A stretch of DNA of 45,181 nucleotides. Source: Cyanobacteriota bacterium SRBZ.bins.94.201705. Its GTDB lineage: Bacteria; Cyanobacteriota; Cyanobacteriia; Cyanobacteriales; Cyanobacteriaceae. The position numbers were made by a program, and so were the translations under genes. This document shows positions 3,100-40,350 of this stretch, one piece after another (positions within the stretch are counted from its first letter, which is position 1; each line of letters opens with the position of its first letter). The notes under the pieces were generated by a model that was given only the letters and a program-made list of their open reading frames with translations, searched no databases and was not told the origin of the DNA. The stretch covers positions 1-45,181 of the forward strand of contig JAUQQP010000007.1 in NCBI GenBank assembly GCA_030549855.1, written 5' to 3'.

Positions 3100-5349
3100 A
3101 TGATGGAAAACAAGTCTAATGGCCATAATAGCAACGATTCCCTAATGACTACTGTCAGTCGGACAGTTAGTGACATCTGGAATACAGTTCAATCTAGGGT
3201 ATATATTCCCCCTTTAAAGTCCAATCGTCCAGTCCCTTCTTTGTATATTCGTTGTGGACAATCTCATTACTGTTATCCTCTTCTTGGAGATCGTTATGTA
3301 ATCGGGCGTAGTAGCAAAAATTGTGATATAGTCATCCGTAGTCCCATTGTAAGTCAGATTCACTGTGTAGTGGAGAGGGATGAGAAAAATCCAAGGCAGT
3401 TTGTTATCAGGGATTTGAATTCTACCAATGGGGTTTACTATGGGGGGAAGAGGTGTGATTGTATTAGTTTATATCATAACGATGTAGTAACTCTAGGCCC
3501 GCCGGAATTAGCAGAGGGGATAGAAATCCGTTTTGATAAGGGTTTAAGCTGGTGGGTATATCTTTTGCGTTATGGCGTTTTTACCACCGGCTTTGGCTTA
3601 CTGTTGGGGTTAGGGTTTATTAGCTGGGAGTGGAGCAAATATCAAGTATATCCTATTCCAGACCACGTGGGAGGGCAAACGGTGGTATATGCCAATGACG
3701 GCAAGACTTTACTGGCGCCTCGTATTGATTCCCCCCATCGGGAATTGGAAAGCCTTTCGGAGTTTGGCTGGATACCAAAAGCCCTTATCGCCTCGGAAGA
3801 CAGCCGTTTTTATTGGCATTTTGGGGTTGATCCTATTGGCATAGTTCGTGCTTTTCTAGTTAATAGGGAGGGAGAAATCAGACAGGGGGCTAGTACAATT
3901 ACACAACAGTTAGCTCGTAGTATATATCCAGCAGTAGGGAGGGAAAACAGTTTTGCCCGTAAATGGCGGGAGATGATGGTAGCCTTGAAACTGGAGGCTT
4001 TATACAGCAAGGATACCATTCTCAAGACTTATCTGAACCGGGTATATTTAGGTTTCAATCTATATGGGTTTGAGGATGCAGCCCATTTTTACTTCAACAA
4101 GCCAGCCAAGGAGTTAACTATAAACGAGGCGGCCACCTTAGTAGCCATTTTACCAGCTCCCAACGCCTATAACCCGGTACAGAATTACGATGCTGCTATT
4201 TCTCTGCGTAACCGGGTAATCTCTAGGATGTTGAGTTTAGGGATGATTAGCAAGGAGGAGGCGGCGGAGGCAAGACGGTCTAGAATTGAAATTAGTCCTC
4301 AGGCTAGGGAGGCCTTTTCCCAAGTAATTGCCCCCTACTACTACAGCCATGTATTTAGAGAGATGCGGCAGTTGTTAGGGGAGGATTTGACCAAGGAGGG
4401 GGATTTCATCATCGAGACTGGACTTAATCCCAAGATTCAGAAACTAGCAGAGGAGAGTTTAAGGGAACATCTTGCAACCAATGGTAAACAAAACAACTTC
4501 AGTCAGGGGGCCATGGTCACTCTCAACAGTAAAACAGGGGAGATAGTAGCCATGGTGGGGGGTAAAGACTTTCAGGAAAGCCAATTCAATCGCGCTACCC
4601 AAGCCCAAAGACAACCGGGATCAACTTTTAAGGTATTCGCCTATACAGCCGCCTTGGAAAAGGGCATTCCCCCTACTAAAGTATACTCCTGTGCCCCTTT
4701 GCGTTGGCGGGGGTTTTTGTATAGGGCTTGCGAGAGGGTGGGGGGTGCAGTTAACATGGAAATAGCCCTAGCCCAGTCGGAAAATGCCGTTGCCCTTAGG
4801 GTAGCCCAAGATGTGGGCTTAGATGCCGTGGTAGCCACTGCTCATAAAATGGGCATCCAATCCCCCTTACAGGCGGTACCAGGTTTAGTTTTAGGGCAAA
4901 GCGAGGTTAACGTGTTGGAAATTACTGGTGCCTATACCCCCTTTGCCAACAACGGCATTTGGTCTCGCCCCCATGCTATCAAAGTAATACGAGATGGCCG
5001 GGATTGTGAGGACTTCCAAAATTATAAAACCTGCAGGGTAGTATATCAGTTTAACGAAAATGGGGACGAACAGAAACAGGTAATTAAACCCCAAATCGCC
5101 CAAACCATGCACCGTATGTTACAAAAGGTAATCACTTCAGGGACAGGTGGGGCAGCCCGTTTGGGCTACGATGAGGCTGGCAAGACGGGCACTACCAACA
5201 AGGGCGTAGATTTGTGGTTTATCGGCTATCTTCCTAAAAACAATCTCATCACCGGCATTTGGTTAGGAAATGACGACAATAAGCCCACCCATAGTAGTAG
5301 TAAACAGGCTGCCATTTTGTGGGGAAAATTTATGAAAAAAACTCTTTAA
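3100..5349 (+). CDS. Class A penicillin-binding protein (PBP1A family) with an N-terminal FHA domain
   Basis: A bifunctional peptidoglycan glycosyltransferase/transpeptidase of 749 residues. Residues about 48-145 form an FHA domain (VIGRSSKN at 67-74, SQIH at 85-88, STNG at 108-111), a phosphothreonine-binding module on the cytoplasmic side. One membrane helix spans about 151-174. The GT51 domain follows with the catalytic Glu in SEDSRF (residue 233) and RQGASTITQQ at 261-270. The transpeptidase has STFK at 508-511, SEN at 560-562 and KTG at 695-697, so both activities look intact. Start ATG 3100 and the adjacent ATG 3103 are equally possible. It is divergent from rodA. The FHA fusion implies control by protein phosphorylation, which is inference. 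Confidence 0.93.
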   Translation: MMENKSNGHNSNDSLMTTVSRTVSDIWNTVQSRVYIPPLKSNRPVPSLYIRCGQSHYCYPLLGDRYVIGRSSKNCDIVIRSPIVSQIHCVVERDEKNPRQFVIRDLNSTNGVYYGGKRCDCISLYHNDVVTLGPPELAEGIEIRFDKGLSWWVYLLRYGVFTTGFGLLLGLGFISWEWSKYQVYPIPDHVGGQTVVYANDGKTLLAPRIDSPHRELESLSEFGWIPKALIASEDSRFYWHFGVDPIGIVRAFLVNREGEIRQGASTITQQLARSIYPAVGRENSFARKWREMMVALKLEALYSKDTILKTYLNRVYLGFNLYGFEDAAHFYFNKPAKELTINEAATLVAILPAPNAYNPVQNYDAAISLRNRVISRMLSLGMISKEEAAEARRSRIEISPQAREAFSQVIAPYYYSHVFREMRQLLGEDLTKEGDFIIETGLNPKIQKLAEESLREHLATNGKQNNFSQGAMVTLNSKTGEIVAMVGGKDFQESQFNRATQAQRQPGSTFKVFAYTAALEKGIPPTKVYSCAPLRWRGFLYRACERVGGAVNMEIALAQSENAVALRVAQDVGLDAVVATAHKMGIQSPLQAVPGLVLGQSEVNVLEITGAYTPFANNGIWSRPHAIKVIRDGRDCEDFQNYKTCRVVYQFNENGDEQKQVIKPQIAQTMHRMLQKVITSGTGGAARLGYDEAGKTGTTNKGVDLWFIGYLPKNNLITGIWLGNDDNKPTHSSSKQAAILWGKFMKKTL

Positions 5350-30595: not shown

Positions 30596-31960
30596 TTATT
30601 TACACCAGACGGTTTTGATGTTTACAAATTCCAGTATCCCCTCCCTGCCCAATTCTCTCCCATAACCAGACTGTTTTATGCCACCAAAGGGCAAACGGGG
30701 ATCAGATTTTACCAAGCCGTTGATAAATACCGCCCCAGCCTCTATATCCCTGATAGCTATTTCCATCTCCTCCCGGTTATTTGTCCAAAGGGATGCGCCT
30801 AGTCCAAAATCCGTGCTGTTGGCCAAATCTATAGCCTCCTGGAAGCTATTGACAGTAAAAACAAGGGCCACTGGGCCAAAAAATTCCTCCCGGGTAGCCG
30901 GCGAGTTGGGGGGAATATCTGTTAAAATGGTAGGGGGATAGAAGTAGCCTTTTCCTTCTAACGGTTTACCCCCTGTTAACACCCGTGCCCCCATAGCCAC
31001 TGTAGTTTCCACCTGTTGTACTAAGGTGGCTAAAACGGCAGGGGTGGCCAGTGGCCCAATGTCTGTATCCTCCTCAAAGGGATTGCCTACCTTTAGCCGT
31101 TGATACCTTTCAGTAAGCCTTGCCAAAAACTCCTCGGCAATGGCACGATGGAGGATAAAACGTTTGGCAGCTATACAAGACTGGCCACTGTTTAGCATTC
31201 TCGCCGTAGTAGCAACTTCTACCGCCTCTTGTAGGTTAGCAGAAGGCATTACAATAAAGGGATCACTACCCCCTAACTCTAAAACACTCTTTTTTACCTC
31301 TTCTCCTGCTACCGCCGCTACCTTACTCCCCGCCGAGAGACTGCCGGTAAGGGTAACCGCCTTTACTCGCTTGTCTCGCAACACCCCCCCTACCTGGGAA
31401 GCTGAAATCAACAACGACTGGAATACCCCCACGGGAAAACCAGCGGCTTCCATTAACTCCTGAATGGCGAGGCTACACTGGGGCACATTAGAAGCATGTT
31501 TGAGTAAGGCCACATTCCCCGCCATTAAAGCCGGTGCGGCAAAGCGAAACACCTGCCAAAAGGGAAAATTCCAGGGCATTATTGCCAAAATTACCCCCAG
31601 TGGCTGATAGGTGACATAACTGTGGCTGGCATCAGTTGCCACTGCATAGGGAGAAAGAAACTCCTCCCCCTTGTCGGCATAATAACGACAAACTAGGGCG
31701 CATTTTTGAATTTCCGCCTTTGCCTGGGTGAGGGGTTTGCCCATCTCTAGGGTAATTAGGTTAGCCCATTTGTCACAGTCCTGGCTTAAAATCTCTGCCA
31801 ACCTATATAGCCTTTCCCGACGGTATTGAAAGGAGGAGAGACGATAAGACTGGAAAGAAGCAGCCGCCAAAGCCAGTTTCCTCTCCACCTCTTCTGCCGT
31901 AAGGGGTGTAAAGGTTTTAATGACTTCTCCTGTAGCCGGGTTAACAGAGGCAAATACCAT
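30596..31960 (-). CDS. gabD: Succinate-semialdehyde dehydrogenase [NAD(P)+]
   Basis: This enzyme oxidises succinic semialdehyde to succinate and closes the cyanobacterial TCA cycle through the 2-oxoglutarate decarboxylase bypass or the GABA shunt. The 454-residue product has the aldehyde dehydrogenase signature MPWNFPFWQ near 130, the general-base Glu in VLELGGSDPF near 231 and the nucleophilic Cys in NSGQSCIAAKRF near 265, and EEFFGPV near 358. I chose ATG 31960 because AAAGGAG precedes it by 5-6 nt and the result has the usual family length. A start 45 bp upstream would overlap the HDAC gene. It lies 23 bp after the HDAC stop, so both are in one transcription unit. Confidence 0.92.
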   Translation of the reverse strand: MVFASVNPATGEVIKTFTPLTAEEVERKLALAAASFQSYRLSSFQYRRERLYRLAEILSQDCDKWANLITLEMGKPLTQAKAEIQKCALVCRYYADKGEEFLSPYAVATDASHSYVTYQPLGVILAIMPWNFPFWQVFRFAAPALMAGNVALLKHASNVPQCSLAIQELMEAAGFPVGVFQSLLISASQVGGVLRDKRVKAVTLTGSLSAGSKVAAVAGEEVKKSVLELGGSDPFIVMPSANLQEAVEVATTARMLNSGQSCIAAKRFILHRAIAEEFLARLTERYQRLKVGNPFEEDTDIGPLATPAVLATLVQQVETTVAMGARVLTGGKPLEGKGYFYPPTILTDIPPNSPATREEFFGPVALVFTVNSFQEAIDLANSTDFGLGASLWTNNREEMEIAIRDIEAGAVFINGLVKSDPRLPFGGIKQSGYGRELGREGILEFVNIKTVWCK

Positions 31961-31983
31961 AACCACTCCTTTGTTTATTACTT

Positions 31984-32910
31984 CTACTGGGAAACAGAGA
32001 GACAACTGAGAATGGTATACTCCACCGACTCTGCCAATGCTTCCAAGTCATAACCCCCCTCCAAGCCAAACACTATCCGCCGGGTAATTTGCAGACAATA
32101 CCTGGTTAAAAGGCCAAAATCTGCCGGAAAAAGGCACATCCCCGCCAGTGGGTCAGCGAAATTGGCATCATACCCCGCACTAACAATTAATATATCCGGG
32201 GCGAACTCCTGGAAAAAGGGAATCACCTGTTTTTGAAAACAATCTTCATATTCTCTTATACTACTTCCCGCCTTCAAGGGTATATTTAAGACATTGTGGT
32301 ACATGCCGGTTTCTTGAGCGCTACCGGTGCCGGGATAAAAAGGATACTGGTGAAGGGAACAAAAACGGATGTGGGGGTTGGTTTGGACAATTTCCTGGGT
32401 GCCATTGCCGTGGTGTACATCCCAGTCTAAAATGGCAACCCGGCTTATTCCTGGTAGGGTAAGGGCATAATGGGCGGCCAAGGCGGCATTAGAAAACAGA
32501 CAAAAACCCATGCCTGTATTACGAGTTGCATGATGCCCTGGGGGGCGAGCGAGAACAAAACATGGGTTTCCTGCTTGTAGTACCTGGTCTACACCGTCCA
32601 GCCAGGCATTCACCGCCAGCAGGGCTACCTCATAACTCTTGGCAGACACGGGGGTGTCTAAGTCAATTCGGCCACCACCTCTTTTTGCCAACTGGGCCAC
32701 GGTTCTGATATAATCCGCATCATGGAATTTATTGACCCATGTCTGTGCCCTTCCCGTTTCTATCGGTGTGGGTTTTAGCCATCGTACCTGTTTTAGAGAC
32801 GGACTTTGTCGCAGACGGTTGACTATACTCACCAGTCTTTCTGGGCATTCCGGATGATATAAACCCGTCTTGTGTTCCAGGAATTCTTCTGTAAAGATAA
32901 TACTTACCAT
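31984..32910 (-). CDS. Histone-deacetylase-family protein (class II HDAC/AcuC-like amidohydrolase)
   Basis: The zinc amidohydrolases of this family remove acetyl groups from lysine side chains, polyamines or other amines. The 308-residue product has the paired histidines in RPPGHHATRN near residue 125, the zinc ligands Asp and His in LDWDVHHGNGTQE near 165, and a third Asp in VSAGYDANFADPLAG near 247. EGGYDLEAL near 286 completes the active site, and all catalytic residues look intact. The substrate is unknown. It lies 12 bp after the third c-di-GMP gene and 23 bp before gabD, so all are probably cotranscribed. Confidence 0.92.
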   Translation of the reverse strand: MVSIIFTEEFLEHKTGLYHPECPERLVSIVNRLRQSPSLKQVRWLKPTPIETGRAQTWVNKFHDADYIRTVAQLAKRGGGRIDLDTPVSAKSYEVALLAVNAWLDGVDQVLQAGNPCFVLARPPGHHATRNTGMGFCLFSNAALAAHYALTLPGISRVAILDWDVHHGNGTQEIVQTNPHIRFCSLHQYPFYPGTGSAQETGMYHNVLNIPLKAGSSIREYEDCFQKQVIPFFQEFAPDILIVSAGYDANFADPLAGMCLFPADFGLLTRYCLQITRRIVFGLEGGYDLEALAESVEYTILSCLSVSQ

Positions 32911-32922
32911 ATTCGCCTCTTT

Positions 32923-35061
32923 TTAACCACTGATGATTTTTGCCAACAATTCCTCTTCTGTTAACGGTTTGCCTACTAGATAGCCTTGAATCACATCGCA
33001 ATCCAATTCTTCTAGAATTCTCTTTTGCCTTTCCGTTTCCACTCCCTCTGCCACTACTTTCATCCCATATCCCCTTGCCAGAGTAATAATAGCTGCTACC
33101 AGTGCCCTATCCTGTTTATTATCGCACAAACCGTCCACGAAGGACTTATCTATTTTTATGGAATCAAAGGGGAATTTTTTCAGGTAACCAAAGGAAGAAT
33201 AACCAGTGCCAAAATCGTCCAAGGACAGTTTTACTCCTATTTCAGCTAATTTGCTAAGGGTTTTTTCTGTTTGGATTATGTCATGCAACAATATGGATTC
33301 TGTAATTTCCAATTCCAAATAGTCGGGGGGAAATTGAGTGGTTTCTAGTATTGTCTTTACCTTTTCCGCAAAATCCCCGGTTTGAAATTGTTTAGCCGAC
33401 ACGTTTACTGATAGGGTAAGAGGGGGATAACCAGACTGTTGCCATTTTTTCCCTATCCCACAAGCCTCTTGCAATACCCATTCGCCAATGGAGACAATCA
33501 ATCCTGTTTCCTCTGCCAGGGGGATAAACTGACTGGGAGACACAATCCCCAGAATAGGGTGTTGCCATCGCAGTAATACTTCCACCCCTTCAATCCGGTT
33601 TGTTTTTAAATCCAATTGGGGTTGATAACTGAGGAAAAACTGTCTGTCATTTACAGCTTGATATAGGCTATTTTCTAATTCAAAAAGGAACATCTTTCGC
33701 CAACTTAATTTGTTGGTATACAACTGGTAATTATTCCTCCCCAATTGCTTGGCACGATACAAGGCTATATCGGCATTTTTAATTAAGGTTGTCTCATTTG
33801 ACCCATCTGTAGGATATACAGAAATCCCAATGCTACAGGTGACGTATATACTGTGTTTATCTATGAAGAATGGCTCTTTTATTCTGGTAATAATTGCCTC
33901 GGCCAGGCTTTTAACAGGATGATTATTTTCTGGGAAGAGAGCTGAGATTTTACTGTATATTGGCATAAGGATAATAAATTCATCCCCTCCCCAGCGGGCT
34001 AAAATACAGTTAGTGGGGAGAACAGTTTTCAGACGGTAAGATAGCTGCTGTAGTAGTTTATCTCCTATGGTGTGACTGAGGGTGTCATTGACATTTTTGA
34101 ATCTGTCTACGTCGATAAAGAAAATCGCCAAGGAGATTTTGTCTCTTCCTTCTTCTTGTTGGAGATACTCTCTTAGTTTTTGATAGAAAAAGTCTCGGTT
34201 AGGCAAACCAGTAAGGGAGTCGTGGAGGGCTTGATGTTTTAGTTGTTTTTCGTAGTTTTTCCTCTCGGTTATATCGAAAGCATAAATTCTTATAACCTTC
34301 TCTCGGCACAAAAAGTGTATATACGTTTCATAGTACATATCTTTGTACTCTACTTCTCTTATAAGCAAATGACTCTGTTGACAATTAAAATTTTCAGGAG
34401 GGTTAACATCTTTTAACAGAGGATTTTCTTGGCTTTTTTTCTCCACTATTTCTTCAAAACAAATTCTGGCAGCCGGGTTACAGTAAAGTAAATTTCCGTC
34501 GGGGTCAAATTCTAAAATAGGATTGGGAGATAGTTCAGGAAAGGAAGCCAAGTGTTCTACATTTTGACTGTGGAGACGCTCCTTTAGATTCAGTTCGGAT
34601 ACAATGAGGGTATCCTGAAGTTTTTCTCTGGTGAAGGCGGATATTTTTCTTCCAGTAGAATCTTCGGAGGATTTATTAGCAGAAGTCTCTAAGAGAATTT
34701 CCTTCTTATAAATTGCCTTATTTTCCTCTGAACCAAAAGCGAGAATATCCCCGGATTTTAGGATGTGTTGGATTATTTTTTGCCCGTTGACAAAAGTGCC
34801 ATTTTGACTTCTTTTACCCCGCAAATCCCCATCAACGAGAATGTAGATTACCTCGCCAGTTTCTGGTAACTCTTGTCGCACCAAAGTGGCATGCAATCGA
34901 GAGACGAAAGGGGAATCGAGAAAAATGGAATTTTTAGAGTCTCGGCCGATAAAATAGAGTCCATCTGTGAGAATAATGGTGTTTTCTTGTTGGTATTTAC
35001 TGGGGAAGAAAATCAAAAGATGACGACTTGTATCCGGCGGCAAAAAGTGGCTATTATCCAT
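32923..35061 (-). CDS. FHA-PAS-GGDEF-EAL protein, catalytically intact
   Basis: A 712-residue soluble c-di-GMP enzyme. The FHA domain (about 30-115) has FIGRDSKN near 37 and SRLH at 54-57. A PAS-like domain follows from about 170 (ASFPELSPNPILEFD). The diguanylate cyclase motif GGDEF is intact at 358-362. The phosphodiesterase has EVL at 494-496 in place of EAL, an accepted variant, with NVSAKQF, ELEITES, DDFGTGYSS, KIDKSF and AEGVET all kept. No RxxD inhibitory site is seen just before GGDEF. It is the last of three tandem paralogs and the only one lacking a second PAS. A weak TATAAT at 35094-35099 (minus strand) could give it a private promoter. Confidence 0.93.
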   Translation of the reverse strand: MDNSHFLPPDTSRHLLIFFPSKYQQENTIILTDGLYFIGRDSKNSIFLDSPFVSRLHATLVRQELPETGEVIYILVDGDLRGKRSQNGTFVNGQKIIQHILKSGDILAFGSEENKAIYKKEILLETSANKSSEDSTGRKISAFTREKLQDTLIVSELNLKERLHSQNVEHLASFPELSPNPILEFDPDGNLLYCNPAARICFEEIVEKKSQENPLLKDVNPPENFNCQQSHLLIREVEYKDMYYETYIHFLCREKVIRIYAFDITERKNYEKQLKHQALHDSLTGLPNRDFFYQKLREYLQQEEGRDKISLAIFFIDVDRFKNVNDTLSHTIGDKLLQQLSYRLKTVLPTNCILARWGGDEFIILMPIYSKISALFPENNHPVKSLAEAIITRIKEPFFIDKHSIYVTCSIGISVYPTDGSNETTLIKNADIALYRAKQLGRNNYQLYTNKLSWRKMFLFELENSLYQAVNDRQFFLSYQPQLDLKTNRIEGVEVLLRWQHPILGIVSPSQFIPLAEETGLIVSIGEWVLQEACGIGKKWQQSGYPPLTLSVNVSAKQFQTGDFAEKVKTILETTQFPPDYLELEITESILLHDIIQTEKTLSKLAEIGVKLSLDDFGTGYSSFGYLKKFPFDSIKIDKSFVDGLCDNKQDRALVAAIITLARGYGMKVVAEGVETERQKRILEELDCDVIQGYLVGKPLTEEELLAKIISG

Positions 35062-35133
35062 GGGGAAACATTGTAAATCCGGGCGCCCACACCATTATAG
35101 GTTAGCAAAAACAATAGTGGGGGAGATGAACTT

Positions 35134-37776
35134 TCATTGTGCCTGTTGATGGCTATGGAGGAAGGCAGTCATTTCTTCAGGGTTTAGAGGAGGGGTTAAC
35201 CAATTGCCTTGTATTTCAGTACAACCCAATTTGATTAATTCTTCCAGTTGAGTTTTATCTTCCACCCCCTCGGCAATAACTCTTACATTTTCCAAACCGC
35301 GGCTAAAAGCCATAATGGCACTAACTAGAGCTTTTTCCTGGGGCTGTGTTAAAATGGTTTTGATAACAGGACGGTCTATTTTAACAGTAGCAAAGGGAAA
35401 ACGTTTGAGATAGCCGAGGGAGACATCACTGGTGCCAAAGTCGTCCAAGGCTAGTCTTACGCCTAAATCTCTCAATTTCTCTAGGGTTAAGACAATCTCT
35501 TCTGAGGCTTTTTCTATGGTTTCTTCCTGGATTTCTAACTCTAACCATTGGGGATGAAAGTCCAGTTTTTCCAGGATGACTTGTAGTTTTTGGACAAAAT
35601 TACGTTGTTGCAGTTGCTGACTAGAGATGTTAATACAAATGGGTTGATTTTGCAAATAGCCTTCCTGTTGCCACAGCCGACGTTGTTGACAGGCATTTTC
35701 TATCACCCATTCGCCGATGGGTACAATTAAACCAGTCTCCTCTGCCATGGGTAAAAATTGTTCGGCACTAATCAATCCCAAATCGGGATGCTGCCACCGA
35801 AGCAAGGCTTCAACCCCTGTAATCTCACTGAGGGCAGTAGAAAGCTGAGGTTGGTAGTACAGACGAAACTCGCCACGTTCCAAAGCATAACTCAAAAGTC
35901 TTTCCAGGCGCAAGAAACGGTCTATTTCCGTCTGTCGGCTTACATCTGCAAACTTATAGTTGTTGCCTCCTGCTTCTTTACTCTTTTGTAGGGCAGTTTG
36001 GGCTTGTTGGATTAGAGACTGGAGGGTTTCCTCTTCATTTTCTCTTACCGCAATACCAATAAATACTTTTGTGTATATATGTTGATGGTCGAGGAAAAAG
36101 GGGGGTTTTAGGGCTTCCAACAGACGGTTGCTTACTCTGCCGGCGTCTCTGGCAGTCCTAATTTGGGGGAGAAGGCAGGCGAAAATAGGCCCTTCCCAGT
36201 GACAAACCACGTCTCCTTCTCGCAGACAGGCGCGTAACCGTTTCCCTACTCCTTCTAAGACTTTAGATTTGAGACTATAATTGAGGGTATCTCTTCCCTC
36301 TTCTAAAATCTCTAATTCCAAAAAGATTACTGACAAAAGTCCCTTTTGACGACGGCTATTGGCTATAGCAGTTTTTAATTGTTCCAAAAACAGTTGTCGG
36401 GTGGGCAAACCGGTTTCCAAATCATACAAACTGTCTTTTTGGATGTAGGTTTGTTGCTGATTTTGTTTGTGAGGGGGATATATTGTGAACAGGATAAGAA
36501 TTTGGTCGCCATAACTCAGCCAGGAAACACTAGTCTCCAGATTTACCGGTAGTTTGTTTTTGCCTTTGTAGACAAATTCTCTTAGAAAATTTTTCTCTTT
36601 TGGTCCACTTAAAATTAGCTCGATTTGTTTATCCAAAACGGTGGTTGTTGAGTCAACTAAGTCGTATAATTTTAGGGAGAATAATTCCTCGAGGGAGTAA
36701 CCTAATAAGTCGGCCATAGCCTGGTTTGCCTCCAGGATTTTCTTGTTTTGAGCGTCTACTAGTAAGATGCCGTCCCTAGTTTGGCTGATAAAAAGTCTAT
36801 ACCTTTCTTCTGTTTCTTGTAACTGAGTTTCTAGGGCTTTTCTCTTGGTATATTCAAAGATGTAACTTCTAATTAATTTTCTTTCAGGCAGGTAATGGAC
36901 GTATTGTTCAAAAACTTGGTCTTTGATTTGAACTTCTCGAACGAATAATTTATTATTTTTTCCTTGAGTGCCGTCAACATTTCTCAATAGTCCCATTAGG
37001 AGGGGGTGACTGTCAACAGGAGGGTTATTTTTCAACTCTGGAAACTTACTGATGGCAGCGGGGTTGAGATAGGTGATATTACCCTGGTAGTCTAGTTCAA
37101 AAATGGGATTAGGGCTTAATTCTGGGAAGGAAGCTAATTTAGCCAAGTCTACGTTGGGGGTGGGGCTTGTTGACAGGGCTACCCCTGCCTCTTCTACATA
37201 ACCTTCGGTAGCTACCACCGTCTTTCTGGGGCTTTTTTCTAGAATTTCTTTCTTTTGCCTGGCAGCGACGGGGGCAACTGAACTAGTGCTTTCTAACTCT
37301 GCGGGCTTGACAAAATCGCCGGATTGTAGTATTTGGAGCTGTTCTGGACTATGGAGAATGTAGTAGACTGCCTGGACATCTAGGCCAAAGTTAATAACAT
37401 CCTCGTGTTTTAATTCCTGTACCAAACACCTTTTGTCGTTAATAAAGATTCCATTGGTGCTACGATTGCCCTGTAAATCGCCATCCAGAAGCCAGTAGGA
37501 ATAGGTGCGATTTTTGGTATCAGTGCGTCGGAGGAGGGTGGCGTGGAAGCGGGAGACTTTTTTAGAGGATAGGACAATTTTATTACGAGGGTCTCTACCT
37601 ATGGAGTAATTAGCTTCATCCAAAACGATGGTGCGTCTGGAGCAATCATCTTGTACTACCAAAACGTGAATTGCGGGTTGTACGTCAAATGGATAATCCT
37701 TACTCATACTGCCACCGGGGGAAGAAACAGAGGGAGTGTGCGGGGAGGCCATTGAGGGCATAAATAGGACCACCAT
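35134..37776 (-). CDS. FHA-PAS-PAS-GGDEF-EAL protein with degenerate GGDEF
   Basis: The 880-residue middle paralog has an FHA domain (SIGRDPRN near 58, SRFH at 75-78), a PAS beginning ASFPELSPNPIFELD, and a second PAS (RYRLFISQTRDGILLVDAQ). The cyclase domain has EGPIF in place of GGDEF, so cyclase activity is probably lost. The EAL domain keeps EALLRW, INISSQQL, ELEIQEE, LDDFGTS, VKIDR and AEGVED, so phosphodiesterase activity is likely. GAGGAGGAAGGG upstream favours ATG 37776. An in-frame ATG at 37707 would align better with its paralogs. It lies 73 bp upstream of the intact paralog. Confidence 0.92.
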   Translation of the reverse strand: MVVLFMPSMASPHTPSVSSPGGSMSKDYPFDVQPAIHVLVVQDDCSRRTIVLDEANYSIGRDPRNKIVLSSKKVSRFHATLLRRTDTKNRTYSYWLLDGDLQGNRSTNGIFINDKRCLVQELKHEDVINFGLDVQAVYYILHSPEQLQILQSGDFVKPAELESTSSVAPVAARQKKEILEKSPRKTVVATEGYVEEAGVALSTSPTPNVDLAKLASFPELSPNPIFELDYQGNITYLNPAAISKFPELKNNPPVDSHPLLMGLLRNVDGTQGKNNKLFVREVQIKDQVFEQYVHYLPERKLIRSYIFEYTKRKALETQLQETEERYRLFISQTRDGILLVDAQNKKILEANQAMADLLGYSLEELFSLKLYDLVDSTTTVLDKQIELILSGPKEKNFLREFVYKGKNKLPVNLETSVSWLSYGDQILILFTIYPPHKQNQQQTYIQKDSLYDLETGLPTRQLFLEQLKTAIANSRRQKGLLSVIFLELEILEEGRDTLNYSLKSKVLEGVGKRLRACLREGDVVCHWEGPIFACLLPQIRTARDAGRVSNRLLEALKPPFFLDHQHIYTKVFIGIAVRENEEETLQSLIQQAQTALQKSKEAGGNNYKFADVSRQTEIDRFLRLERLLSYALERGEFRLYYQPQLSTALSEITGVEALLRWQHPDLGLISAEQFLPMAEETGLIVPIGEWVIENACQQRRLWQQEGYLQNQPICINISSQQLQQRNFVQKLQVILEKLDFHPQWLELEIQEETIEKASEEIVLTLEKLRDLGVRLALDDFGTSDVSLGYLKRFPFATVKIDRPVIKTILTQPQEKALVSAIMAFSRGLENVRVIAEGVEDKTQLEELIKLGCTEIQGNWLTPPLNPEEMTAFLHSHQQAQ

Positions 37777-37872
37777 CCTGTCGCCCTTCCTCCTCTAGGA
37801 TCATTCTAGTTAAAAAAGGTTCAAAACTTCCTCAATTGTTGGCCTTTTCCCTTTATAGTTTCTTATAAATTC

Positions 37873-40350
37873 TTAAAGGGACACAGGATATTCGGCCTTT
37901 TGGAGGAAAACCGTAGCCTCTTTGGTGGGGAGAGGACGAGTGATAAGATTGCCTTGGATTTGATAACAACCCAGTTTTCTTAGCAATTCTACCTGTTCTA
38001 GTTTTTCTACCCCGACAGCTACAAGACGAAACTTATAACCCTTAGACAAGATGGCCATGCTTTCTACCAATGCCTGAGACTGGGGACTAGTTTCTATTTG
38101 ACTTATCACAGAGGGGCTGATTTTAACAGTATTAAAGGGCACTGTTTGTAGGTATACTAAGGAGGAGTTGCCTACGCCAAAGCCGTCATAACACAGTCTT
38201 ATTCCCCCTTTGGCCAACTGGTGGAGGATTTTGTAGGCCAATTCTGTATCCTGCAGCAGGCAGTTTTCTGTCACTTCCAATTCCAAAAATTGGGGGGGTA
38301 ATCCGGTTTGTTCGAGGATTTTTAGCACTATTTCGGGGAAGTTGGGTTGGAAAAATTGACGGGCAGAGATATTAACACCAAGGGGCACAGGGGGTATATT
38401 TTCTTCCCGCCATTTTTGCATCTGTAGGGTAGCCGTTTGTAAAATCCATACCCCTAGGGGAAGCATGAAATCCGTTTCTTCCGTGAGTCTCAAGAAGTGC
38501 CTGGGGGTTACTTTGCCCAATTCTGGATGCTCCCATCTGAGGAGGGTTTCCAAACCGGTGAGTTCTTTTGTATTACAGTTTATCTGGGGTTGGTAACACA
38601 GGAAAAATTGTTGTTCCTTGATGGCAGTGCCAATTAATCCCTCCAGTTTGAGGAGGCTGGCGGATTTGGGGCTAAGATAGAAGCCGCTGACGCCCAGGTT
38701 GGCAGGAACATTGTTTTTGGCTTGTTCCAGGGAAAGAAGGGCATTTTTGATGAGGAGGGAGGGGGTATTGCCATCGATGGGGTAAATGAGTAGACTCAGA
38801 TTAAGGGCTAACTTAACTGTGTCTTGTGCTGCTTCCTTTTGTAAGTATTCTTCTACGGTGGTGGAAATCTTTTTGACTACCACTGCCGCTTCTTTTGGCC
38901 CACGAAGACGGGGTAGTAAGGCCATAAACTTGTTATTATCCCATCGGGCTAGTAAATCCCCTTGTCGCAGACAGGATTTAATAATCTCGGTCAAATTTTT
39001 GAGGGTATTGTCTTTCAACTGAGGATGGTGCTGACAATATTCCTCCCAGTGTAGGATTTCTGCTACTACCATCCCCATCATCTGCTGGTACCTACTGGCT
39101 TGGGCTACAGCTATTTGCAGTTGTTCCTCAAATAGTTTCTGGTTGGCGATGTGTAGCAGGGGGTCATGAAGGGCATAATAGTTGGAATACTCGTCTTCTG
39201 GCACCACCTTTGAACTATCTTTTATTACAAAGCAGAACATCTCTTTGTTTTGATAGGCGATGAGACTGATACTGGTGTCCAAGCTGACAAAAGTCCCATC
39301 CTTGCGACGATAGAGGTATTTGGTTTGTAAATCCTGTTTGGTTTCTAGAATCTTACTCAAATCTTGGTTAAGGGTAGTCAACTCGGTGGCAATGAGGTTG
39401 TAGAGGGTGAGATTGGTGATTTCCTCGTGACTGTAGCCCAAGAGATTGAGGAAGGCGGGGTTAGCCTCCGCCAGACGACGACTACCAGCATAGGCCAGGA
39501 ATATCCCCTCACTGGTCATTCTAACAATAGCCCGGTATAAGGCTTGACTTTCCCTCAGTTGGGCTTCTGCTTGTTTTCGTTGGGTAAAATCGTAAATATA
39601 ACTCCTAATGAGTTTTTTTTCCGACAGGTAGTGGACATACTGTTCAAATACCTCATTGCCTATTTTTACTTCCCGCAAAAACAAATTCCCCTGACGGCTG
39701 TTAAAATCCTCTAGTAGACCTGCCAGGATAGGGTGTTTTAGTTTTTCCTCGAATAGGGTTTCAAATTTGAGGCTAGCTGCTGGGTTGACGTAGGTGATAT
39801 TCCCCTCCCAGTCTATTTCAATGATAGGATTAGGGCTAAGTTCGGGGAAGGAAGCCAAACGGATTAATTCTTGTTGATCCTCCTTATTTTGTTCCTCCTT
39901 ATTGATAACTGTTTCACTGGACTGACTATTGAGGGTGACACGGGAAGCAGAAATTTTGTCTAAACTTTCCGGGTTAAACAAATCGATGCCGGCATTAGCT
40001 GGTATGATATAATAGTGGGCCTTGGCCTCGCCGCCAAACCGGATTACGTCGCCGTGTTTCAAATCGTGGGAAATAACTGCCCTCCCGTTGATAAATAGGC
40101 CATTGGTGCTTCTTTTTCCCTGCAAATCGCCGTCAATAATCCGATAACAGTAGTGTACTGCCCCGTTTTCGTCTTCTTCTATTCTCCGAATCAGGGTAGC
40201 GTGGGTGCGGGATACCTGATAGTCGTAGAGGATTATGGGGTTGTGGGAGTCTCTACCAATGGTGTAGTTGCCCTCCTCCAAAAATACTATTCTTCTACCC
40301 TTGCGATCTTCTATTACAAGCAGGTGACGGAATTCTTGTGGTTGGTTCAT
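37873..40350 (-). CDS. FHA-PAS-PAS-GGDEF-EAL protein, both catalytic domains degenerate
   Basis: First gene of the tandem set, 825 residues from ATG 40350; a GTG 21 codons upstream is less likely. It has the FHA (TIGRDSHN, SRTH), PAS (ASFPELSPNPIIEID) and second PAS domains. The cyclase motif is DNNKF in place of GGDEF. The phosphodiesterase domain has ETL for EAL, YDGFGVG for DDFGTG, KIS for KID and VGVE for EGVE, so key metal ligands are lost. It is therefore probably a ligand-binding or scaffold protein. It is separated by 97 bp from the next paralog. purH is divergent from it. Confidence 0.92.
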   Translation of the reverse strand: MNQPQEFRHLLVIEDRKGRRIVFLEEGNYTIGRDSHNPIILYDYQVSRTHATLIRRIEEDENGAVHYCYRIIDGDLQGKRSTNGLFINGRAVISHDLKHGDVIRFGGEAKAHYYIIPANAGIDLFNPESLDKISASRVTLNSQSSETVINKEEQNKEDQQELIRLASFPELSPNPIIEIDWEGNITYVNPAASLKFETLFEEKLKHPILAGLLEDFNSRQGNLFLREVKIGNEVFEQYVHYLSEKKLIRSYIYDFTQRKQAEAQLRESQALYRAIVRMTSEGIFLAYAGSRRLAEANPAFLNLLGYSHEEITNLTLYNLIATELTTLNQDLSKILETKQDLQTKYLYRRKDGTFVSLDTSISLIAYQNKEMFCFVIKDSSKVVPEDEYSNYYALHDPLLHIANQKLFEEQLQIAVAQASRYQQMMGMVVAEILHWEEYCQHHPQLKDNTLKNLTEIIKSCLRQGDLLARWDNNKFMALLPRLRGPKEAAVVVKKISTTVEEYLQKEAAQDTVKLALNLSLLIYPIDGNTPSLLIKNALLSLEQAKNNVPANLGVSGFYLSPKSASLLKLEGLIGTAIKEQQFFLCYQPQINCNTKELTGLETLLRWEHPELGKVTPRHFLRLTEETDFMLPLGVWILQTATLQMQKWREENIPPVPLGVNISARQFFQPNFPEIVLKILEQTGLPPQFLELEVTENCLLQDTELAYKILHQLAKGGIRLCYDGFGVGNSSLVYLQTVPFNTVKISPSVISQIETSPQSQALVESMAILSKGYKFRLVAVGVEKLEQVELLRKLGCYQIQGNLITRPLPTKEATVFLQKAEYPVSL

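Follow-up and report, generated by a model that had tools for sequence, protein, structure and literature searches.

Adjacent FHA-PAS-GGDEF-EAL genes with graded loss of catalytic motifs, a candidate c-di-GMP control unit in a cyanobacterial family

Gene order and catalytic motifs

The window analysed here, a stretch of 45,181 nucleotides (contig JAUQQP010000007.1, positions 1 to 45,181) from Cyanobacteriota bacterium SRBZ.bins.94.201705, whose genome measures 2.87 Mb and is 99.9% complete, carries three neighbouring minus-strand genes, here named A, B and C, for proteins that join an FHA domain to PAS, GGDEF and EAL domains and would together handle cyclic diguanylate (c-di-GMP). In the direction of transcription the order is C, B, A, with the most degenerate gene first and the intact one last. 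Gene C (37873-40350) encodes 825 amino acids from an ATG at 40350, the listed open reading frame starting further upstream at a GTG (40413); its FHA-PAS-PAS-GGDEF-EAL product is doubly degenerate, with DNNKF in place of GGDEF and ETL...AVGVE in the EAL domain. Gene B (35134-37776; 880 amino acids as listed) has the same domain order, with EGPIF in place of GGDEF and an EAL domain altered in loop 6; its true start is probably residue 24 (37707), because the same-genus ortholog aligns only from there. Gene A (32923-35061; 712 amino acids) encodes an FHA-PAS-GGDEF-EAL protein with intact catalytic motifs. C and B are separated by 96 bp (165 bp if B starts at 37707), B and A by 72 bp. A previous sequence-only reading of the window had pointed out three adjacent genes with these motifs, a description that open reading frames, Pfam searches and motif tables reproduce exactly. 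The same reading had taken the domain order as shared, which holds for FHA, GGDEF and EAL, each above the curated Pfam cut-off in all three proteins, but not for a second, clear PAS domain, present in B (residues 324-413) and C (271-378) only.

The catalytic motifs deteriorate stepwise from A to C. In A, GGDEF (residues 358-362; 33976-33990) is accompanied by EVL, DDFGTG, KID and AEGVE, and loop 6 is intact (DDFGTGYSS, 33193-33219); its orthologs keep GGDEF in 13/13 rows and, in 12/12 of the rows that cover them, the metal-binding Asp, the catalytic base and every other scored EAL residue. In B, EGPIF (528-532; 36181-36195) is followed by EAL, DDFGTS, KID and AEGVE. The GGDEF Asp and Glu are gone from all 14 B orthologs, and every EAL metal ligand and the base are retained in all 14 (the Gln of YQP is His in two of them). 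Loop 6 of B reads DDFGTSDVS (35419-35445), with the metal ligands kept and GYSS altered, again in 14/14 orthologs, and B has also undergone a change at EIQE. In C, DNNKF (471-475; 38926-38940) is followed by ETL, YDGFG, KIS and AVGVE. Three positions are affected in each of the 14 C orthologs: the second Asp of DDFG (DGFGVGNSS, 38161-38187), replaced by N, G or S; the Asp of KID (KISPS, 38110-38124), replaced by S; and the catalytic base Glu (AVGVE, 38005-38019), replaced by V. These are exactly the scored EAL residues lost in C, all the others (the Glu of EAL, the Arg of EALxR, the Gln of YQP, Asn, both Glu of ExxE, the first Asp, Lys, the Glu of GVE, and Gln) being kept 14/14. From EAL structures, the kept residues presumably surround the substrate and one metal, and the lost ones include ligands of the second metal. 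GG[DE]EF is absent from all 14 B and all 14 C rows. The graded loss proposed from the single genome is thus common to every ortholog row covering the residues, and it is fixed per orthogroup, not ongoing. A Prochloraceae counterpart of C (L051_851) has a dead GGDEF domain and scored EAL residues that are intact except for loop 6, which suggests that in the C lineage GGDEF was lost before EAL.

Published schemes predict that losing the catalytic base in EGVE leaves an EAL domain inactive as a phosphodiesterase (PMC12900916), and place an EAL domain without a conserved loop 6 in class 2, 'potentially activatable' (PMC3229569). Read against these schemes, the residue states put the EAL domains of A, B and C in classes 1, 2 and 3, respectively, B keeping its catalytic residues with an unconserved loop 6 in 14/14 orthologs. 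Two further papers touching on EAL loop 6 (PMC5845226, PMC10874727) add nothing decisive. The earlier expectation that C is probably inactive agrees with the base-loss rule (PMC12900916). For B, which had been called a phosphodiesterase only, the loss of GGDEF and the retention of the EAL ligands stand, but the loop 6 change makes the assignment less sure than claimed.

A structure model of C (mean predicted local distance difference test score, pLDDT, 79.7; predicted template modelling score, pTM, 0.39) is usable for single domains only: its EAL domain matches the EAL structures of MorA, MucR and PdeA with a target-normalised template modelling (TM) score of about 0.9, and whole-chain matches (DosP) reach about 0.3.

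Conservation, selection and origin

Of the family's 15 genomes (G000 to G014), 12 have C, B and A contiguous, two have them dispersed and one has a hybrid in their place; counting broken frames, all three genes are found in 14/15. The block is retained while neighbouring genes vary between these genomes. Two or three related genes likewise stand side by side in Prochloraceae, Gomphosphaeria aponina, Chroococcus sp. FPU101, Aphanothece hegewaldii and several Crocosphaera records, and close named matches to C (57-67% identical) come from Geminocystis sp. GBBB08, of a genus placed in Geminocystaceae (NCBI), and from other draft cyanobacterial genomes. Contig scans for relatives returned none with C alone as query and 20 with an alignment as query.

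The hybrid (G011, L046:4546-8268) is an in-frame C::A fusion of 1240 amino acids with no B beside it. Its residues 1-673 match C of G003 (86% identical) and its residues 658-1223 match A of G003 from position 138 (80%), giving FHA-PAS-PAS, a dead GGDEF domain with RTVD and a partial EAL domain from C, followed by PAS-GGDEF-EAL from A. Frames are broken in the draft assemblies G002 and G010, and a contig of G013 ends inside A. In one draft assembly A is split into two frames (L045:2579-4681), and in another A, B and C are truncated or split (L032:1512-6260); these are either pseudogenes or assembly errors.

The ratio of nonsynonymous to synonymous substitution rates (dN/dS), estimated by Nei-Gojobori counts with our own script, is low in all three genes. 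Between the window and the same-genus genome G001, a pair with dS near 1, it is 0.088 for A, 0.069 for B and 0.048 for C, and 0.054, 0.033 and 0.021 for their respective GGDEF domains. The corresponding whole-gene values are 0.067, 0.068 and 0.038 between G004 and G007, and 0.188, 0.096 and 0.069 between G005 and G008, so that C has the lowest ratio of the three genes in every pair. B and C are under strong purifying selection and are probably not decaying copies.

The origin of the set is less uniform than its domain content. The N-terminal and the catalytic halves each yield three separate orthogroups, all of which span the family and are therefore older than it. B and C group with their counterparts from other families in a single clade (support 97/96) whose members are mostly degenerate, and the GGDEF-EAL core of A falls with ordinary FHA GGDEF-EAL proteins; a tree that joins A to the B/C clade is not rejected by the approximately unbiased (AU) test (p-AU 0.158). 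The tandem duplication that had been proposed for all three genes is thus supported by the trees for B and C, and A is neither placed with them nor excluded; the phylogeny asked of the set is favourable for the first pair and equivocal for A. A strict clade of A, B and C orthologs is rejected (p-AU 2.6e-9), but this test does not address tandem origin because its sequence set omits the counterparts in other families.

The phrase ASFPELSPNPI had also been offered as a sign of tandem duplication. It is indeed common to A, B and C, where it opens a PAS domain that scores weakly in Pfam. Close forms (ASFPEL.P.PI), however, also stand behind FHA in other cyanobacterial proteins without GGDEF-EAL (L065_1667, L066, L067_3914, L070_2440, L071, L076 and L082 in the motif table), and therefore the phrase alone does not demonstrate duplication; it is a PAS signature that is not specific to the three genes. 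In our reading of their C-termini, rather than by a family search, these FHA-PAS proteins without GGDEF-EAL would be histidine kinases.

Candidate ligand sites outside the catalytic centres

The RxxD motif of the I-site, nine residues upstream of GGDEF, binds c-di-GMP in many cyclases. It is retained in the dead GGDEF domains of C (RQGD, residues 462-465, 38956-38967) and B (REGD, 519-522, 36211-36222) in all 14 rows of each (28/28), the C rows including the G011 hybrid and excluding a G002 fragment in which the region is absent. In A the position reads PTNC (349-352; 34006-34017), and RxxD is lost in 13/13 rows. Of 152 GGDEF columns, only seven do not vary across the B and C rows (28 in all); RxxD supplies two of them, its R and its D, and the first four positions of the GGDEF motif itself drift in these rows. 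Two of the seven invariant columns are identical to invariant residues of A (W357 and F362) and look structural. The table from which these counts come leaves aside FHA rows lacking GGDEF-EAL, the fragment L045_4037, the divergent FHA protein L085 and rows gapped at the motif.

As a control, other GGDEF domains were scored in six genomes (40 of 83 GGDEF matches, of which one, L138, was gapped at the motif, leaving 39). RxxD occurs in 18 of 25 intact and 2 of 14 degenerate domains, 'degenerate' here including mild forms such as SGDEF and DGDEF; dropping the rows L143 (a divergent FHA protein) and L144 (maybe another) gives 2/13 or 2/12. The sample leaves aside the FHA-PAS set under study, matches to EAL only, matches interrupted by stops and some further ones. 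On the count of 2/14, sampled domains that have lost the catalytic site do not usually retain the I-site. A Fisher test over all rows (p 5e-4) ignores relatedness and is not relied on. In A, the Asp of the lost I-site (34006-34017) has given way to Cys in 11 of the 13 orthologs and to Tyr in the other two; the conserved Cys may have a role of its own.

A second potential ligand site lies at the N-termini. The FHA domains of C (40033-40266), B (37384-37608) and A (34732-34956) were located by Pfam and a residue check, and their phosphothreonine-binding residues (GR, SR.H and NG) are retained in all family orthologs that cover them. The linker between FHA and PAS holds a candidate phosphothreonine in each protein: Thr147 of C in ETVINKE (39910-39912), Thr186 of B in KTVVATE (37219-37221) and Thr151 of A in DTLIVSE (34609-34611). 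The linker alignment gives LQ(D/N/E)TL(I/V)xSE in A, T(L/V/F)(V/F)xxE in B and (E/Q/D)TxI in C, and the common pattern T-[LIVMF]-[LIVFA] is found in 13/13 A, 13/13 B and 15/15 C linkers (41/41). Among other FHA-PAS proteins, 53 of 93 rows had a recognisable linker, and 39 of these 53, none of which belongs to the A, B and C sequences that first revealed the motif, carry it; 500 shuffles give 12.4 on average and 20 at most. The pattern was fixed after these linkers had been viewed, and many of them are mutually related, so this is neither a blind nor an independent test. FHA domains read Thr, not Ser. The Ser version of the motif is depleted in the 53 linkers (5 against 19.3 in shuffles). Residues 126-172 of C, the FHA-PAS linker including Thr147, are mostly of low confidence in the model, from which we infer a probably disordered linker. 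A second Thr in the C linker, Thr139 (39934-39936), stands in TL eight residues before Thr147 and is invariant in 15/15 rows. In other cyanobacterial families, the FHA-PAS module and the linker Thr motif also occur on putative histidine kinases without GGDEF-EAL (L070:2440-6954 and L067:1395-5947), which directly adjoin FHA-PAS-GGDEF-EAL genes.

A partial precedent for such a motif is the FHA-GGDEF protein DgcB of Bdellovibrio, whose FHA domain reads a phosphothreonine in its own N-terminal peptide, thereby activating c-di-GMP synthesis; that peptide is hydrophobic at -3, +2 and +3 and carries Glu at -2 and Ser at +1, a pattern it shares with GarA and OdhI (PMC6733907). The A linker is hydrophobic at the same three positions, and the B linker fits at +2 and mostly at +3. 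In DgcB the peptide is an N-terminal tail, whereas in A, B and C the candidate Thr lies after the FHA domain and the proteins have an additional EAL domain. The genome holds 20 places matching protein A, 14 FHA domains and 15 protein kinase matches, of which 14 are Ser/Thr kinase domains over the Pfam cut-off. The phosphothreonine layer that the sequence-only reading had imagined is favoured by the intact FHA residues and the linker Thr motif; that reading had passed over the motif, as well as the RxxD of B and C, its absence from A, and the loop 6 and EIQE changes of B.

A candidate c-di-GMP control unit

Gene order, motif states and their conservation, selection, trees and linker statistics are brought together, with moderate confidence, by reading the three genes as one c-di-GMP control unit, for which the activities, ligand binding, phosphorylation and complex formation described next are predictions. 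A would be the enzyme, likely both making and breaking c-di-GMP, with no canonical feedback (I-) site. B and C would be stable pseudo-cyclases that probably bind c-di-GMP at the retained I-site, and a receptor role for the dead members, already raised in the sequence-only reading, is favoured by I-site retention and by strong purifying selection. B probably acts as a phosphodiesterase only under certain conditions, with c-di-GMP at its pseudo-GGDEF domain exerting the control, because its EAL metal ligands and base are kept and its loop 6 is altered. C probably acts as a c-di-GMP receptor and nothing else, with two candidate sites for the ligand, because it has lost the second Asp of DDFG, the Asp of KID and the base while keeping the other scored EAL residues. 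After phosphorylation by a Ser/Thr kinase of the cell, the linker Thr would be a likely FHA ligand on the same chain or on a sibling, and this contact would switch or assemble the set.

Several observations weigh against this control unit. The genes lie apart in G004 (C and A about 86 kb, A and B about 344 kb) and in G007, so adjacency is not essential; the 'one operon' of the sequence-only reading is plausible for the present genome and does not extend to these two family members. RxxD alone is no proof of c-di-GMP binding, and six of the 61 degenerate GGDEF domains among all collected rows lack it. A phylogeny-aware pair test found no association between GGDEF loss and RxxD (median p 1) with five usable pairs, too few to decide, which leaves column conservation, together with a control uncorrected for kinship, as the basis of the I-site argument. 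As for the linker, 14 of the 53 from other FHA-PAS proteins lack the motif, and many of the 53 come from close relatives of one another. Compared with DgcB, the A linker has Gln at -2 and Leu at +1, and the C linker fits at +2 only, its +3 residue being S, N, G, A or K and not hydrophobic.

The same data can be read differently. B and C might regulate A mainly by protein contact, through heteromeric GGDEF-GGDEF or EAL-EAL pairs, with RxxD kept for the fold or the contact rather than for c-di-GMP. Heteromeric GGDEF contacts, degenerate domains included, are documented in Escherichia coli (PMC5635695), and the two B/C-invariant columns shared with A look structural, but the fold evidently needs no RxxD, which is missing from 13/13 A proteins with an otherwise intact GGDEF domain and from 12/14 degenerate controls, and c-di-GMP is bound by E. 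coli CdgI, in which the I-site is intact and the domain otherwise degenerate (PMC5635695). This contact-based regulation seems to us unlikely, if the most serious competitor to ligand sensing. Less probable again is that paralogs of different age adjoin by chance, A from an ordinary FHA GGDEF-EAL lineage and B and C from a degenerate one, with no joint function. The grouping of the A core (97/96 for the split) and the dispersal in G004 and G007 would fit such chance neighbours, whereas the maintenance of the block in 12/15 family genomes amid changing neighbours, the similar blocks in the Prochloraceae, Gomphosphaeria, Chroococcus, Aphanothece and Crocosphaera records and the failure to reject A as a member of the B/C clade (p-AU 0.158) would not be expected from them.

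A snapshot of gene loss after tandem duplication, in which B and C are relaxed or decaying duplicates without specific function, could account for the stepwise loss of motifs, for the related genome without B in which C is fused to A and for the broken frames in two draft assemblies. We regard it as very improbable and reject it on dN/dS and on the identical losses common to orthologs: in the window pair C (0.048) and B (0.069) are more constrained than A (0.088), C is lowest in all pairs and B about equal to A in one, 14/14 C orthologs lack the same three EAL residues and keep the rest of the scored set, and 14/15 family genomes hold all three genes, broken frames counted.

Within the control unit favoured here, product feedback might have moved outside the enzyme: c-di-GMP on the I-sites of B and C would act in trans to inhibit or steer A, which has no I-site, and an FHA-linker Thr code would hold or release the set. 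If true, the locus would encode an enzyme and two pseudoenzymes that together form a self-contained c-di-GMP sensor gated by kinases. The G011 hybrid, in which a dead GGDEF domain with an I-site and a live enzyme share one chain, fits this idea, but a fortuitous deletion between paralogs would yield an identical product, and RxxD persists in the A-like proteins that neighbour degenerate partners in Chroococcus sp. FPU101 and Aphanothece hegewaldii. We put trans feedback forward as an improbable speculation.

Each ingredient of the proposed unit has known relatives. The closest to A is CdgSH (All1175) of Anabaena sp. PCC 7120, an FHA-PAS-GAF-GGDEF-EAL protein that is bifunctional, with phosphodiesterase activity dominant in vitro (PMC8682488). 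Like A it is a cyanobacterial FHA-PAS...GGDEF-EAL protein with both motifs intact; unlike A it includes a GAF domain and has retained RxxD at the I-site, and the accessible text on it mentions no degenerate tandem siblings (PMC8682488). FHA-GGDEF-EAL proteins of Anabaena and Microcystis are described elsewhere (PMC8682488, PMC7063779, PMC13075795), and the available part of an Arthrospira paper contains no FHA (PMC10607523). B and C resemble PopA, which binds c-di-GMP via its I-site (PMC5052742), PelD and CdgG, named as degenerate RxxD homologs (PMC3032553), and CdgI, which binds c-di-GMP and forms heteromeric contacts (PMC5635695), in combining a dead catalytic site with an intact I-site; they differ in their additional FHA, two PAS and EAL domains. 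That c-di-GMP modulates heteromeric contacts of a degenerate I-site GGDEF domain has already been suggested for CdgI (PMC5635695).

C is further comparable to LapD and FimX, in which both catalytic domains are degenerate (PMC3032553). LapD, however, is a transmembrane HAMP protein that has lost the EAL Glu (KVL), whereas C keeps that Glu in 14/14 orthologs and has lost the base and two Asp instead; the Pfam scan of C found no HAMP or periplasmic domain, and no membrane-segment prediction was made. The E. coli trigger phosphodiesterase PdeR is a GGDEF-EAL protein that both degrades and senses c-di-GMP in a local module (PMC5052742), forming the matrix switch module with DgcE and DgcM (PMC5635695). 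The unit proposed here would resemble it as a local c-di-GMP module with a GGDEF-EAL sensor-enzyme. To our knowledge, DgcE and DgcM are not tandem FHA paralogs.

Although each ingredient is known, their combination in one conserved three-gene set was not found in print: a search of the literature on FHA, GGDEF, EAL and cyanobacteria, in the accessible parts of the papers and with most subscription journals outside it, returned no degenerate tandem FHA-GGDEF-EAL set, nor was a paper found on Slr1951 (FHA structure 3hx1). At one locus, an enzyme and its class 2 and class 3 relatives, with stereotyped losses, are conserved together across a bacterial family, which makes the role of pseudo-GGDEF-EAL proteins testable through three neighbouring genes. 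The linker Thr motif is a concrete candidate for the ligand of FHA domains on c-di-GMP proteins and their kinase-like relatives in cyanobacteria.

Closely downstream of A lie a histone-deacetylase-like and an aldehyde dehydrogenase gene (30596-32910) that overlap each other. The former starts 12 bp after A in the window and overlaps A by 4 bp in G001; no match to either gene was seen in the remaining 22 loci, although in some of these the sequence stops shortly past A. A wider operon including this pair was considered and dropped, since the pair is seen only in the window and G001. A promoter and terminator pattern scan gave no excess over shuffles (16 against 15.8 and 12 against 14.0) and is uninformative. 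Elsewhere in the window (3100-5349), another FHA protein is encoded, in which the FHA domain is fused to a class A penicillin-binding protein with transglycosylase and transpeptidase domains.

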